A stretch of 53,248 bases of DNA from Microcaldota archaeon (GTDB taxonomy: Archaea; Micrarchaeota; Micrarchaeia; Micrarchaeales; CABMGC01): contig JAJZZD010000007.1 in NCBI GenBank assembly GCA_021797745.1, positions 1 to 53,248 of the forward strand. Direction: 5' to 3'. Each line of letters begins with the position of its first letter. Within the stretch, counting starts at the first letter, position 1. The position numbers and the translations under genes were made by a program. Under the pieces are notes generated by a model. It was not told the DNA's origin. It saw only the letters and a program-made list of their open reading frames with translations, and searched no databases. Below are positions 1 through 37,296 of this stretch, piece by piece.

Positions 1-261
1 TTTTTTCTTCCACTTCTTTCCAAATACTCCGCCTTGTCATGCATCTTAGCTGCGTCTATTCTGTAGCTTTCTGATTTTTTTTGCTATGTCATATGGCAGA
101 TTGAACTGCAATCGATATCCCTTTACCATAAAATCTGCTGCTTTTACAAGATGCCTGCGGCCGTGCTCCTGCCACCAACCAACTTCATACTTTGCCAGAA
201 GTTTTGCCTTTTTTGAATCCATTGCAGCACCATACGCATCATATAGAATCTGGATTATCAT
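1..261 (-). CDS. Small charged protein, frame broken at poly-A run, cut by left edge
   Basis: A reading frame starts at the ATG at 261, overlapping the last tRNA base, and continues as a helical, basic and aromatic protein (motif AKYEVGWWQEHGRRH) until a TAA at 46-48. Just before that end, an 8-nt A run (T run at 75-82 on plus) lies inside the codons for AKK. Removing one A moves translation into another frame that stays open to base 1 and reads SESYRIDAAKMHDKAEYLER, a typical charged helical sequence. I infer one longer gene, extending past the window, with a frameshift in the homopolymer: slippage, mutation or sequencing error. Function not recognised. No Shine-Dalgarno is visible; it may be co-transcribed with the tRNA. 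Confidence 0.55.
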
Positions 262-369
262 GCGAGAGCCGGGATTTGAACCCGGGTCTTTGCCTTGCCT
301 TGTTTTGCTGAAGCTTTTTTAAATGCTTCATTGGAGGGGCAAAGTCCTACCAGGCTAGACTACTCTCGC
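262..369 (-). tRNA. tRNA-Gly(UCC) with a 36-nt intron
   Basis: The minus strand folds as a tRNA: acceptor GCGAGAG/CTCTCGC perfectly paired, D arm GTCT...GGAC, T arm CCGGG-TTCAAAT-CCCGG. The anticodon stem TTGCC/GGCAA is interrupted by extra sequence. With a canonical 37/38 insertion the intron is 296-331 (36 nt, with an internal TGAAGC/GCTTCA hairpin) and the mature tRNA is 72 nt. The anticodon is TCC at 333-335. Position 33 is then C rather than the nearly invariant U. The sequence GGCAA occurs twice at the 3' side, so the exact splice site is uncertain. CCA is not encoded. Confidence 0.85.
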
Positions 370-6216: not shown

Positions 6217-6245
6217 GGTGCGTGGTGGGGAATAAAATATGGCTG
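6217..6245 (+). promoter_or_regulatory. G-rich leader element overlapping a start codon
   Basis: The sequence TGCGTGGTGGGGAATAAAAT followed by ATGGC matches the core of the hairpins at 19537 and 19966 (GCGT-A-GGGTGGGGAAYAAAATAYGGC). CGT can pair with the ATG start codon (C-G, G-U, U-A), so if it folds, the start codon of the P1-like gene would be partly sequestered. GGTG within it may also serve as a Shine-Dalgarno sequence, which is the simpler reading for this copy. Confidence 0.45.
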
Positions 6246-6736
6246 CAGGAAAGGCATCTGAATCTGAACATGATCTTGATTCTTTTGGTTCAGATGCCGA
6301 TTCTATTTCTCTGGCTTTTTCCGCAATACTCAAATCCGTTAACTCGCTCACCACAAAGCTGCTTGCGGAGGAATCCGAATATCTACTCAGTGACAATGAG
6401 ATAAGCGCGCACATAAAAGATGGGATTGCAAAATACATATATGCTGCTGGATTTTTGAGCATGACCGGGAAGGAAATAACGAGGGAAAACATGGCCGGCT
6501 TGATAAAGGTGCTCGATGGCGAACCGGATTACGGAATGATAGACCTTTTGCTCAAGCGCGGGATAAAGAGCCATGTTGCCTATATATATGCATATTATTT
6601 CCTTCTTACCAACGGGAAGGAAGTGAACAGCGAAAACATAGCCAGTGTCTTGAAGTTTTTAGGCATTAAGCCAGAAATTAAAAGAATAACTGATATGACT
6701 GCTTTCATATCAGAATCGCAGAAGTCAAGCCTGTAA
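6239..6736 (+). CDS. Tandem ribosomal P1/P2 N-terminal-domain-like protein
   Basis: This 165-aa protein has an acidic, serine-rich N terminus (1-25), a helical segment (25-60) and two repeats that each look like the archaeal P1 (bL12-equivalent stalk) dimerisation domain: KYIYAAGFLSMTGKEITREN at 65-84 and AYIYAYYFLLTNGKEVNSEN at 114-133, each followed by the I-x-x-V/L-L-K helix. There is no alanine/glutamate hinge or GFGLF-like factor-binding tail, so it is not the ordinary stalk protein. I infer that it may bind uL10 helices or itself. The start follows a TATA box and the G-rich leader. Confidence 0.6.
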   Translation: MAAGKASESEHDLDSFGSDADSISLAFSAILKSVNSLTTKLLAEESEYLLSDNEISAHIKDGIAKYIYAAGFLSMTGKEITRENMAGLIKVLDGEPDYGMIDLLLKRGIKSHVAYIYAYYFLLTNGKEVNSENIASVLKFLGIKPEIKRITDMTAFISESQKSSL

Positions 6737-18082: not shown

Positions 18083-19357
18083 ATGGAAATAAAAACAAGA
18101 ATTAAACTTGGCAGAAGCGGATATGGGAATAGGCGTGTTTTGCTTGCGCTAAGCTTTGCGCTGGGATTTGTCCTGATTTCTGGGCTGGCAGCCGCGCAGA
18201 ATTCTGCAACCTCCTTTGCAAATGTTTCAGTAACGCCGAATCCGGTAATCGCCGGAGGGAATGTGACTGTGCGTTTCCAACTGTACAACTCCCAGAACTT
18301 CTATCTTTTCGATGTTAATCTGCAGCCTACAGGCGGCTACCCGCTTTTCAATTTCTCCCCTCTGAGCAGCTATCACGCAGGCATCATGAACGCCGGTTTG
18401 AATAATGAATACTTCAATTACACGTTTCACATACCTAATTACACGCAATCGGGAACTTACACTATTAATTTCGTAGCGACTTACTCAGTACTTGGTTCTA
18501 CAGGAGGCGAAGTGGGGACTTCGACAATGCCGCTAAGTTTCTATGTGCAGAACAGGCCAGTGATCAAAACATCGCTCGCAAGCACGGCAACTGCACTTTA
18601 TTCAGGCTCTAACCAAACGCTAACGCTTGATGTAGAAAATACAGGATACGGAGTTGCAAGGAACATAAGCGTCGTGCTGAAAGCAGGAAACGGAATAAGC
18701 CTGCAAAGCCCGGTTACTAAGTTTTTCATTGCCAACCTTTCACAGAATAAAACTGCAACAGAGCAAATACTCGTGGCCGCTAAGAATGCAAGTACTGCAA
18801 ACATAACCGCCAACGTAACCTATTACTCTTCGAATTTCAATAACAAGTTTTCAAGCAGTCAGAACCTAAGTTTGAGCGTTGCTCCTTCGGCGAAGTTCAC
18901 GGTAGTATCGGAGTCCTCTTCTGTAATGCCCGGTTCTACCGACATGCCTGTCGTTTTCACTATACTCAACTCAGGAAACAGCGAAGCTGACGGTGTGTCG
19001 CTAAGCCTTCAAACAACATATCCTATAACTCCTGTGGCAGGCACATACTACATAAGCAAGCTGCTTCCAGGAGAATCTGCTAATGTAACTTTCTTGGTCA
19101 GCGCCGATTCTGCTGGCATTCCTGGAAACTACCCGGTTACGATATATGAACAGTGGAAGCAGCCTAATGCTGCAGTGAATCAGCTCTTTGAAAGCTCAAG
19201 CAATTATCAAACTGCTGTAGTGAATTACGGTGGAAACGAAACGCTAGAAGAGATCGCAATACTGGTAATATTGGCGTTGATTGCCGTGTTTGTAGCTAAG
19301 AAAAGGAATATGCTGCACAAAAAAAATAGGCGTTTTGTGGGTATAAACGCGACTTAG
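18083..19357 (+). CDS. Secreted, membrane-anchored COG1361/CARDB-like surface protein
   Basis: This 424-aa protein has an N-terminal signal peptide (LLALSFALGFVLISGLAAA, cut near residue 40), three beta-sandwich repeats of the CARDB/COG1361 kind (VSVTPNPVIAGGNVTVRFQL, LDVENTGYGVARNISVVL and FTILNSGNSEADGVSLSL), many N-glycosylation sequons and a C-terminal membrane helix (IAILVILALIAVFVAKK) with basic residues after it. A GGTG ribosome site lies 6 nt before the ATG. Being in the PadR-ABC operon, it may be an external partner of the exporter. Confidence 0.85.
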   Translation: MEIKTRIKLGRSGYGNRRVLLALSFALGFVLISGLAAAQNSATSFANVSVTPNPVIAGGNVTVRFQLYNSQNFYLFDVNLQPTGGYPLFNFSPLSSYHAGIMNAGLNNEYFNYTFHIPNYTQSGTYTINFVATYSVLGSTGGEVGTSTMPLSFYVQNRPVIKTSLASTATALYSGSNQTLTLDVENTGYGVARNISVVLKAGNGISLQSPVTKFFIANLSQNKTATEQILVAAKNASTANITANVTYYSSNFNNKFSSSQNLSLSVAPSAKFTVVSESSSVMPGSTDMPVVFTILNSGNSEADGVSLSLQTTYPITPVAGTYYISKLLPGESANVTFLVSADSAGIPGNYPVTIYEQWKQPNAAVNQLFESSSNYQTAVVNYGGNETLEEIAILVILALIAVFVAKKRNMLHKKNRRFVGINAT

Positions 19358-19491
19358 TCTTTTTCGTCAGCGTAGACTACTCTCCAAACATTATGGCCCT
19401 CCTGAAGCCATTTTACGGGTCTTTTCTCATTCTTTTTACGCTCTTCTTCTAACGGCCTTTTGTTTTCAAAGAATTTATCGAACCAGCTCAT
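19354..19491 (-). CDS. 45-aa charged small protein
   Basis: The minus strand encodes MSWFDKFFENKRPLEEERKK followed by NEKRPVKWLQEGHNVWR and an acidic end. Composition and helix pattern are strongly protein-like. Its TAA overlaps the stop of the convergent surface-protein gene. A TATA box (TTTATATG, about 19525) lies at a workable distance, giving a short leader. The function is unknown. Confidence 0.6.
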   Translation of the reverse strand: MSWFDKFFENKRPLEEERKKNEKRPVKWLQEGHNVWRVVYADEKD

Positions 19492-19536: not shown

Positions 19537-19578
19537 GGCGCGCAGCGTAGGGTGGGGAACAAAGTGTGCCCGCGCGTC
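19537..19578 (+). ncRNA. 42-nt G-rich-loop hairpin, copy 1
   Basis: GGCGCGC pairs with GCGCGTC (one G-U), then after a small internal loop (AG/CCC) CGTA pairs with TGTG using G-U wobbles, closing the 15-nt loop GGGTGGGGAACAAAG. It is the same length and architecture as copy 2 at 19966. Differences lie in the 3' halves and keep pairing through wobble, which suggests a functional RNA, although a protein-binding DNA site is possible. A plus-strand TATA-like ATATAAATA lies just upstream (19525-19533). Confidence 0.5.
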
Positions 19579-19751
19579 ATCAGCATAATTACATCGACAA
19601 TATTGATTTTATTGATTTTATACATGGTAAATGCCTCGTCATCCCGCCATATTGCCTACATTTATTGGTGATTTCTAGATATATATACCCTATTAATTAT
19701 TGCAATTTGTTTAAACCTTTTAGGTATTTTGTAACGTTGTCCTTTTGCAGC

Positions 19752-19922
19752 CTATTTCCTGAATTCAAATGCCTTCCGCCTTTTGTAAACATAATGGCTT
19801 TCGCATGTCGAATAATCGTCTGCGCAGTTTTCAAGCACAGAGCTTTGCAGACCGCTGTCTGCACCCGGATCGCCGCCATTATCCTGCTCAGTAACTACTA
19901 CAAATCCATAATCGCCGCTCAT
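19752..19922 (-). CDS. Possible 56-aa acidic protein between the two hairpins
   Basis: The minus-strand ATG at 19922 opens a 56-codon frame starting MSGDYGFVVVTEQDNGGDPG and ending VYKRRKAFEFRK. It is rich in D/G/S with a basic tail, unlike the Ile/Cys/His-rich readings of the other frames here. No clear ribosome site is visible; AT-rich sequence upstream could hold a promoter. It lies between two direct copies of the 42-nt hairpin. Function unknown. Confidence 0.35.
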   Translation of the reverse strand: MSGDYGFVVVTEQDNGGDPGADSGLQSSVLENCADDYSTCESHYVYKRRKAFEFRK

Positions 19923-19965
19923 GTTTCCACTCTCTGGAGCATATTAATCAAAAGAATGAGTGAAT

Positions 19966-20007
19966 GGCGCGCAGCGTAGGGTGGGGAACAAAATACGGCC
20001 GCGCGCC
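19966..20007 (+). ncRNA. 42-nt G-rich-loop hairpin, copy 2
   Basis: GGCGCGC pairs perfectly with GCGCGCC, and CGTA pairs with TACG inside an AG/GCC internal loop, closing the loop GGGTGGGGAACAAAA. The first 27 nt are identical to copy 1 and both are followed by ATCAGC. With copy 1 it brackets about 390 bp. The following 350 bp to the next gene hold a related GTGTGGGGAATGGCGGG at about 20050, a small hairpin at 20111 and an AT-rich promoter region, but no convincing gene. Confidence 0.5.
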
Positions 20008-20110
20008 ATCAGCGTTGTTGCACGTGTTACGTATGCTATTTGTGTTACGTGTGGGGAATGGCGGGAAAGAGTGAAGCAGGGGTCTTGCAGTATTGGTAAT
20101 CTTTTTGATG

Positions 20111-20126
20111 TTGTGGGTGGGCACAA
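20111..20126 (+). other. Small hairpin with GGTGGG loop
   Basis: TTGTG and CACAA form a 5-bp stem around GGTGGG, and the sequence continues AAGAATAAAC. It looks like a reduced relative of the 42-nt elements nearby (GGGTGGG then ACAAA), but it is short and could be chance. Confidence 0.25.
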
Positions 20127-20356
20127 AGAATAAACAGCATACACTCCTATTGCACTCGCTCTCATTATCCCGCCATCTACTTATATTATAACTTAGCTTA
20201 TATTTAGCGATAGCGTAATTTATCAAATCTATTTTATTAGCGCACTGAAGATAATCATTTAAAAAGTTGTAAACCCAAGTAAATTTATATAGTATATCCT
20301 ATAAAACAATCGCGAAAATTCAAAAAGCTTATTAATTTATAGTAATAGTATATATT

Positions 20357-21892
20357 ATGGAAATTCCTGATAAGGTAAAATCAACCTTAAAGCGTCTGAA
20401 AGAAGCACATGGCAATCATTACCTGCGCTTGGCAGCAGTTGGCAATCACTACTACGTTTCTGAATACACCGTGCACTATGATAAACTTTCGAAAAAGAAC
20501 CGTGTCACGGTGAAATACCTAGGCAGAATAATAACGAGCGGTGAATTCATACCCGCATCTAAAAAGTCTCGTTTAAACGCAGATGTCACGTCAACGCTTT
20601 CCGAACCTGTCAAAACTGCAGCAGAGCGGCTTAGAAATCAGCATAACAAAATTTACATAATGCCCATTAATAAAAAGGCATATGTCTATGCCATTCGACC
20701 GAATGCACAGCCCAAATATATCGGGGTCATAGAAGAAGACGGAACCTACGTCGGGGAAAACATAGAGACTAAAGAAGTCGAAGAGAAAGATTTTGCTGAA
20801 GCCAAATTCAAAAAATACGACGAACGTATTTTAACAGTACTCAGCATGAACAGCAGAGCGTCTATCCCGTTTATAGCAAAAAAGGTAGGATTGAGCAGTT
20901 CGTCTACTGCTTACCGGATAAAGAAGCTAGAAGACAAATACGATATCAAATATTCGCTGGATCTGAGAATAGGCGCGGGATTAGGATATCTGGAATTTGC
21001 AATTTTCGTTAAATTTAAGGATAAAATGCCGCCACTTGAAGAAATCAAAAATCAACTAACTAAGGATTCAAGGGTGCAGCTCGTTGCGACATTAAACGGA
21101 GCATATGATTTATTCATATATTATGTTACTGAAACTGCATATACTCGAATGACCGGAGCATTAGAAGTCGTCAATAAAATTTATGAAACAACGCAGAATG
21201 CGCTTGCAAAATATAGCGCGGAATGGCTCGTTACGCCATTTTCTAGATCGTACGGCCTTGCCCCGCTTCGAGATACATTTTTCGACCTTTTGAAAAACAA
21301 AGTTTGGTCTAAATCAAAAGACTTCCCAAAACCAATTCCTGGCCAAATAACAAAAAGAGAATATGTTGTGCTAAAAGAGCTATATTCAAATAGCAAGGCA
21401 GATTTTACAAGTATCGATGAAAAGTACGGATTTGACAAAGGAGCTTCATATTACACCTATTCAAAACTGAAAGAAAAAAAGATAATTAATTTTGCCACAA
21501 TAAACATACAAAAACCTCCAATAAAATATATTGCAATTATTTATTTGACTCAAACGAATATTGCAGAATTCCTTACGAGCAGAGAGGTCCTATTAGCCAG
21601 CATAATTGAAAATATGGATTACCCAATAAACAAATACCTACTTGTCGGAGATGTTCTGACTCCTCAAGGAATTACGTTCGTACTTCCGGTCATTCGTGAT
21701 CAAGAATTATCAGATATAGAAAGCTTTCTCAGCAGGATAAAAGGTACTGTACCGCAAACATCAATTATTAAACAATTATTAATAGGAAACTTCGCTTATA
21801 TCAGACAAGATAATAAGTATACCCGGATGTACGACACACTCGTAAGCGAGTATAAGCATCCAATCGAAAAATTAGAAAATTACGAGCAATAA
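20357..21892 (+). CDS. Large Lrp/AsnC-like regulator with extra N- and C-terminal domains
   Basis: This is a 511-aa protein. Residues about 150-200 form an AsnC-type helix-turn-helix (YDERILTVLSMNSRASIPFI then AKKVGLSSSSTAYRIKKLED), followed by a RAM-like effector region (LEFAIFVKFKD...VATLNGAYDLFIYYV). A second winged-helix-like segment (ITKREYVVLKELYSN) begins near 335. The N-terminal 60 residues (YYVSEYTVHYDKLSKKNRVT then VKYLGRI) resemble the start of IS4/IS1634-type transposases. It is far longer than normal Lrp (about 150 aa). The upstream AT-rich region holds TATA-like sequences at 20281 and 20333. Target genes are unknown. Confidence 0.75.
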   Translation: MEIPDKVKSTLKRLKEAHGNHYLRLAAVGNHYYVSEYTVHYDKLSKKNRVTVKYLGRIITSGEFIPASKKSRLNADVTSTLSEPVKTAAERLRNQHNKIYIMPINKKAYVYAIRPNAQPKYIGVIEEDGTYVGENIETKEVEEKDFAEAKFKKYDERILTVLSMNSRASIPFIAKKVGLSSSSTAYRIKKLEDKYDIKYSLDLRIGAGLGYLEFAIFVKFKDKMPPLEEIKNQLTKDSRVQLVATLNGAYDLFIYYVTETAYTRMTGALEVVNKIYETTQNALAKYSAEWLVTPFSRSYGLAPLRDTFFDLLKNKVWSKSKDFPKPIPGQITKREYVVLKELYSNSKADFTSIDEKYGFDKGASYYTYSKLKEKKIINFATINIQKPPIKYIAIIYLTQTNIAEFLTSREVLLASIIENMDYPINKYLLVGDVLTPQGITFVLPVIRDQELSDIESFLSRIKGTVPQTSIIKQLLIGNFAYIRQDNKYTRMYDTLVSEYKHPIEKLENYEQ

Positions 21893-37251: not shown

Positions 37252-37296
37252 GCGTTTAGAGGGTGGGGAATAACGGGTAAAATACGCTCTAAACGC
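37252..37296 (+). ncRNA. 45-nt G-rich-loop hairpin, related to the 19.5-20 kb copies
   Basis: GCGTTTAGAG pairs perfectly with CTCTAAACGC (10 bp), closing a 25-nt loop that starts GGTGGGGAATAAC and ends AAAATACG. The loop matches the 42-nt elements (GGTGGGGAACAAAATACG), while the stem sequence is entirely different but still complementary. It lies 66 nt after the TPR-AAA stop in a 388-bp gap; the rest of the gap holds a TATA-like AGTTTATAAATG near 37318, T-rich tracts and no credible gene. Confidence 0.5.

Follow-up and report, generated by a model that had tools for sequence, protein, structure and literature searches.

The hairpins described here are well supported as members of a family of small structured RNAs, not described before, within one family-level group of "Candidatus Micrarchaeota." The family, its structure and strand, its promoter-like positions and gene neighborhoods, and the complementarity of its loop to a gene start region were all established by computation. 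The window, referred to throughout, is the whole 53,248-nucleotide stretch of DNA that was analyzed (contig C9).

Hairpins of the window and copies in other genomes

Two hairpins of exactly 42 nt, 429 nt apart, were confirmed in the window (hairpins a and b; Table 1), as was a related hairpin at 37252 with a different but fully complementary stem. The 10-bp stem of this third hairpin was perfect, its core matched that of hairpins a and b, and its loop was longer; a similar stand-alone hairpin, GGCGTTTGGAG..CTCTAAACGCT, was found in genome G008. Hairpin b was the top match of covariance models R1, R2, and R3, and TGTATAAA was located 46 nt 5' of hairpin a on the minus strand. At 6217, where the initial annotation had placed another related element, the core was present but the hairpin was absent (z = -0.55), and the sequence corresponded to the Shine-Dalgarno (SD) sequence and ATG of the gene starting at 6239. 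The description of the kilobase around hairpins a and b as gene poor was partly right, but its minus strand contains a 45-amino-acid (aa) gene after hairpin a and a truncated RAM gene after hairpin b.

Table 1. Positions of hairpins, neighboring genes, and predicted target in the window
Feature	Position	Strand	Description
Hairpin b	19966..20007	-	10-bp stem GGCGCGCGGC/GCUGCGCGCC, loop CGUAUUUUGUUCCCCACCCUAC; fold z = -5.1
Hairpin a	19537..19578	-	Diverged copy, GACGCGCGGG..GCUGCGCGCC, core UUCCCCACC as in hairpin b; R1 E = 1.1e-9
Third hairpin, stand-alone type	37252..37296	-	Stem GCGUUUAGAG/CUCUAAACGC, loop CGUAUUUUACCCGUUAUUCCCCACC; fold z = -4.84
TATA box TTTATAAA	37320..37327	-	Putative promoter; spaced for a transcription start just before the third hairpin
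Upstream leader stem	20060..20174	-	GGCGGGA/TCCCGCC + AAGATTACCAA; common to C4, C1, and C9 loci
5'-truncated lone Lrp/AsnC RAM gene, 3' of hairpin b	19773..19919	-	Profile positions 53-98 of 99, E = 5.4e-7
45-aa gene, 3' of hairpin a	19357..19491	-	MSWFDKFFENK...VWRVVYADEKD
Divergent regulator, AsnC-type helix-turn-helix	20357..21892	+	Pfam PF13404; paralogues beside other leader-type copies
Predicted target site, SD + start region GGTGGGGAATAAAATATGGCTGC	6224..6246	+	23-nt complementarity to hairpin-b RNA, three G-U pairs
Predicted target gene, 165 aa	6239..6736	+	C-terminal region resembles archaeal ribosomal P1/L12 N-terminal domain

Covariance models and pattern searching together recovered eight copies in the ~0.8-Mb Micrarchaeota genome to which the window belongs (the source genome), with the remaining hairpins of this kind on contigs C4 (two), C1, C6, and C5. 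The pattern GTGGGGAN{0,14}AATAYG occurred seven times genome-wide, compared to once for a reversed-pattern control. Six of the seven occurrences were hairpins, and the single nonhairpin match to this loop-complement pattern was the SD sequence and start codon of the 6239 gene.

Model R1, built from the source-genome copies, found relatives, and models R2 and R3 widened the set. Among the 301 genomes of the phylum that were searched as MAG assemblies, R3 matched 26 genomes of the source genome's family-level group in addition to the source genome itself, with 13 genera represented when that of the source genome is included; these matches include R3's own seed sequences, and E values from such home-built models are rough. 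Seed-independent matches included those in G016, G028, G100, G003, G063, G075, G030, and G031. Elsewhere in the phylum, R3 matched just four of the 301 genomes, with weak scores. Matches in genomes of other families (G165, G180, G196, and G292), along with those in G078 (C75, L132) and G086 (L117), were rejected as chance, having low scores and, in those viewed, no TATA-hairpin architecture.

Comparison to Rfam 15 yielded only tRNAs in the window at the gathering score and nothing at E values up to 2 in seven hairpin loci, which agrees with the initial statement that no described family with this core was known. Box C/D and H/ACA guide RNAs were also considered; there was no Rfam match to them, and inspection of the aligned members by eye revealed no common C/D or ACA boxes. 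One of the tRNAs reported by Rfam (109 nt, positions 261-369, minus strand) was missed by ARAGORN with bacterial settings and is therefore probably intron containing.

Strand of the RNA and covariation of the stem

Read from the window minus strand, the stems of nine members contained 10 G-U pairs and 4 mismatches, compared to 2 G-U pairs and 12 mismatches on the opposite strand. An exact (8/8) TATA octamer was located 5' of 22 of 34 hairpins on the RNA strand and of 0 of 34 on the opposite strand, and T-runs of at least 5 nt followed the hairpin in 12 cases on the RNA strand versus 1 on the opposite strand, although these 34 hairpins are not independent, since many are close orthologues within two genera. 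The hairpins also lay on the sense strand of downstream small genes. Because of the G-U asymmetry, the promoter side, and the gene orientation, the RNA was assigned to the minus strand, which makes the conserved loop C rich (UAUUUU-n-UCCCCACC). Thus, the conserved core and the structured RNA proposed in the initial annotation were retained, but the G-rich loop was not. A plus-strand G-rich loop forming a G-quadruplex was rejected on the same three grounds; the core has just two G-runs, and a loop quadruplex is not relevant to an RNA transcribed from the minus strand.

In an alignment of 18 members, 9 of the 10 stem pairs showed two-sided changes and 94% of cells paired, with the covariation score reaching 0.865, compared to 0.242 when shuffled (0/500) and to ≤0.24 for slid versions; the alignment, made from unedited sequences, had been fitted to the structure, and this favors the covariation result. 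Stem compensation, first proposed from the window alone, was confirmed and became much stronger with relatives added. Individual stems were complementary by eye (GUUAAGGUG/CACCUUAAC, GAAGUAUGGC/GCCAUACUUC, AAGGUAUGGC/GCCAUACCUU, and GCGUUUAGAG/CUCUAAACGC). MAFFT alone misaligned the hairpins. In the seed alignment (A9), three of six rows were lightly padded or trimmed (loops edited, stems unedited), and its pair count rests partly on these rows. The loop core, UUUU-n-UCCCCACC, was constant across the 18 aligned members; the core departed in leader-type copies of G078, G005, G020, and G035, where UCCCUCC or UUCCCU replaces UCCCCACC.

An ATG sits at the base of most hairpins of the source genome, where it opens short frames such as MARGRILFPTLRCAP, and in G012 the short frame from the hairpin-base ATG ends beside the 45-aa gene start, an arrangement like that of translational coupling. 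With the ATG within 0 to 8 nt of most of these hairpins, short leader peptides could be what is conserved, with the RNA structure incidental. However, the CCCCAC core occurs in three frames relative to the ATG (TTC CCC ACC, TTT CCC CAC, and TAT TCC CCA), an ATG is absent from several relatives, and covariation is seen in the stem. Because the reading frame differs among copies, the core is kept as RNA and not as peptide, and conserved leader peptides are considered very improbable.

Stand-alone and leader forms and their gene neighborhoods

The hairpins occurred in two forms, namely, stand-alone RNA genes and leaders preceding a gene that encodes a lone Lrp/AsnC ligand-binding domain. Stand-alone copies had a TATA box 27 to 42 nt 5' and, in several genera, a T-tract directly after the stem, and their neighbor genes were conserved within each genus. 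In genus g4, the predicted fold (z = -3.7) was a three-way junction whose arms are the hairpin, another hairpin, and an outer stem. Leader copies were located ~65 to 100 nt 5' of the lone-RAM gene in the source genome, G078, G005, G020, and G075. The product of this small gene was annotated as a lone Lrp/AsnC ligand-binding (RAM) domain by matches to PF01037 in 9 of 10 aligned members (best, 5.7e-6), and its best PDB matches were AsnC/Lrp proteins. Such a gene was present at five source-genome loci and was truncated at one of them (19773-19919). A gene similar to the 45-aa gene also follows the hairpin in G012 (pairwise E = 4e-5).

The hairpins on contigs C4, C1, C6, and C5 were mostly located between the small gene and a divergent AsnC-type helix-turn-helix (HTH) regulator on the other strand, and the hairpin is enclosed by an outer stem of another sequence in C6 and C5. 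The initial description of a dispersed family was correct in that several copies exist, but dispersal is not the whole picture: in the source genome, a divergent Lrp/AsnC-type regulator is found near six of the eight, and the majority of these six directly precede the lone ligand-binding-domain gene. The regulator family itself is expanded (20357-21892, with paralogues in C1, C4, C5, and C6), its members having an N-terminal "YYV...YLGxI" domain, an AsnC-type HTH, and a long C-terminal part. Regulators with the "YYV...YLGxI" domain lie close to a lone RAM gene in many genomes of the order, often divergently.

The presence of several copies per genome, and of C9 and C4 regions that are clearly duplicates, could also suggest a dispersed mobile or REP-like palindrome. 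Yet the C9/C4 duplication spans the whole gene neighborhood, the stem differences are compensatory and not signs of decay, and the copies are consistently placed with respect to genes and TATA boxes. No transposase was found among the flanking genes scanned, and nothing mobile was recognized around the copies, so that the possibility, raised at the outset, of their being parts of a mobile element is scarcely credible.

Cis-acting attenuation was also considered, in which the hairpin and a T-tract would end transcription ahead of the small gene, making stand-alone copies the terminated products of lost or distant genes. T-tracts after several leader hairpins (G020 and G075) are consistent with this explanation, as are the additional upstream stem and conserved AAGATTACCAA in three source-genome leaders. 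However, stand-alone copies retain a TATA box of their own within a narrow range of distances as well as genus-conserved neighbors, and a fixed loop is not required for termination. The 5'-untranslated-region position expected of a riboswitch or attenuator leader is not constant either, given stand-alone copies such as 37252-37296 and those in genera g3 and g4, and a riboswitch ligand-binding core made up of a 10-bp hairpin and one conserved segment would be very small. Attenuator leaders are thus judged improbable.

Predicted target and proposed mechanism

The start region at 6224-6246 differs from the exact loop complement at three positions, all of them C-to-U changes on the mRNA side that keep pairing as G-U. 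Duplexes between source-genome loops and this start region had a predicted energy of -30.7 kcal/mol, compared to -14.1 kcal/mol for the runner-up among the window's real genes; an entry at -35.5 came from a spurious frame lying antisense to hairpin a. The protein encoded at 6239 matched TIGR03685 (E = 1.3e-8, below its cutoff) and PDB entry 3a1y (E = 4.2e-5), and no homologue of it was found in the other loci examined. Shared ancestry of the two sequences, and not targeting, could also explain the match at 6224.

Additional targets were sought in the source genome and in relatives. Matches to GTGGGGAAYAA with one mismatch were at the control level in the source genome, as searched by sequence patterns and not by an annotated gene set, and no recurring loop-complementary start region was found in 13 genomes of two related genera, where only isolated two-mismatch sites occurred (e.g., in G002). 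Pairing with the consensus loop was stronger for lone-RAM gene starts than for other open frames (mean, -9.9 versus -5.1 kcal/mol; P = 5e-9), a comparison weakened by spurious frames among the controls and by strong SDs. A C-rich loop pairs with many SDs by default, because SD sequences are naturally GGTG rich; no 16S rRNA, whose 3' end would give the source genome's own anti-SD, turned up in its assembly. In G078, the lone-RAM gene start ATGGTGGGGCAAGAAAATACG (L115, 1606-1640) resembles the complement of the source-genome loop, and the hairpin loop of G078 itself has diverged.

These RNAs are proposed to act as small RNAs (sRNAs) that mask ribosome-binding sites (RBSs), a reading given about even confidence, in which both target and repression are predictions from sequence and the target was not replicated in relatives. 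A short stand-alone RNA or small-gene leader, with transcription and RNA ends as predicted, would be produced from the window minus strand, and its variable, covarying ~10-bp stem would present the unpaired U-rich and UCCCCACC segment. This segment may serve as an antisense seed for start regions consisting of an SD (GGUGGGG), an A-rich spacer, and AUG. Binding would hide the RBS and repress translation, with the P1-like gene at 6239 as the predicted target in the source genome. RBS masking was preferred because the loop complements a start region and because this is an established mode of action for archaeal sRNAs (PMC3510493; PMC5867862). A broader and more tentative possibility, regarded as rather less than probable, is a lineage-wide sRNA family, in free and RAM-leader forms, in which the stem evolves around an invariant anti-SD loop and which links the expanded Lrp-type regulators to translation of a ribosomal-stalk-like protein.

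Alternatively, a protein that controls its own leader, possibly the lone RAM protein or the neighboring Lrp-type regulator, might recognize the loop, with stand-alone copies acting as a sponge or small RNP. A constant loop on a changing stem is also typical of protein recognition, and the hairpin recurs just 5' of lone-RAM genes (five in the source genome, intact or truncated, as well as in G078, G005, G020, and G075) and beside Lrp-type genes in G006, G078, and G035. Against this, RAM domains are not known to bind RNA, many stand-alone copies have no adjoining RAM or Lrp-type gene, and protein binding leaves the near-exact complementarity to one start region unexplained. A protein-binding element is considered unlikely, though it is the main alternative and carries appreciable weight.

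Comparison with known regulatory RNAs

Trans-acting sRNAs are poorly known beyond a few cultured archaea, and no described regulatory sRNA was found in the literature searched for Micrarchaeota, which are DPANN archaea with reduced genomes. A covariation-backed family with putative promoters and a computed target provides a directly testable example and would be a worthwhile addition to Rfam. Pairing with SD sequences through a C-rich unpaired hairpin loop is also a feature of staphylococcal sRNAs that carry UCCC loop motifs (e.g., RNAIII); the C-rich loop described here appears similar, but these bacterial RNAs are presumably unrelated.

The RBS-masking reading has parallels in Methanosarcina mazei. 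A single-stranded segment of sRNA162, which adjoins a transcription factor gene, has been experimentally proven to mask an RBS by pairing (PMC3510493). The hairpins are likewise predicted to have an unpaired segment complementary to an RBS (6224-6246, at -30.7 kcal/mol), but this segment is a hairpin loop, whereas sRNA162 uses a linker between stem-loops, and the likeness drawn here is in the proposed mode of action. The intergenic sRNA154 and sRNA41 are also reported to mask RBSs, and a loop of sRNA154 contains an anti-RBS sequence (PMC5867862). Compared to these two sRNAs, the hairpin family belongs to another lineage, is present in several copies per genome, and includes a leader form before the lone RAM gene.
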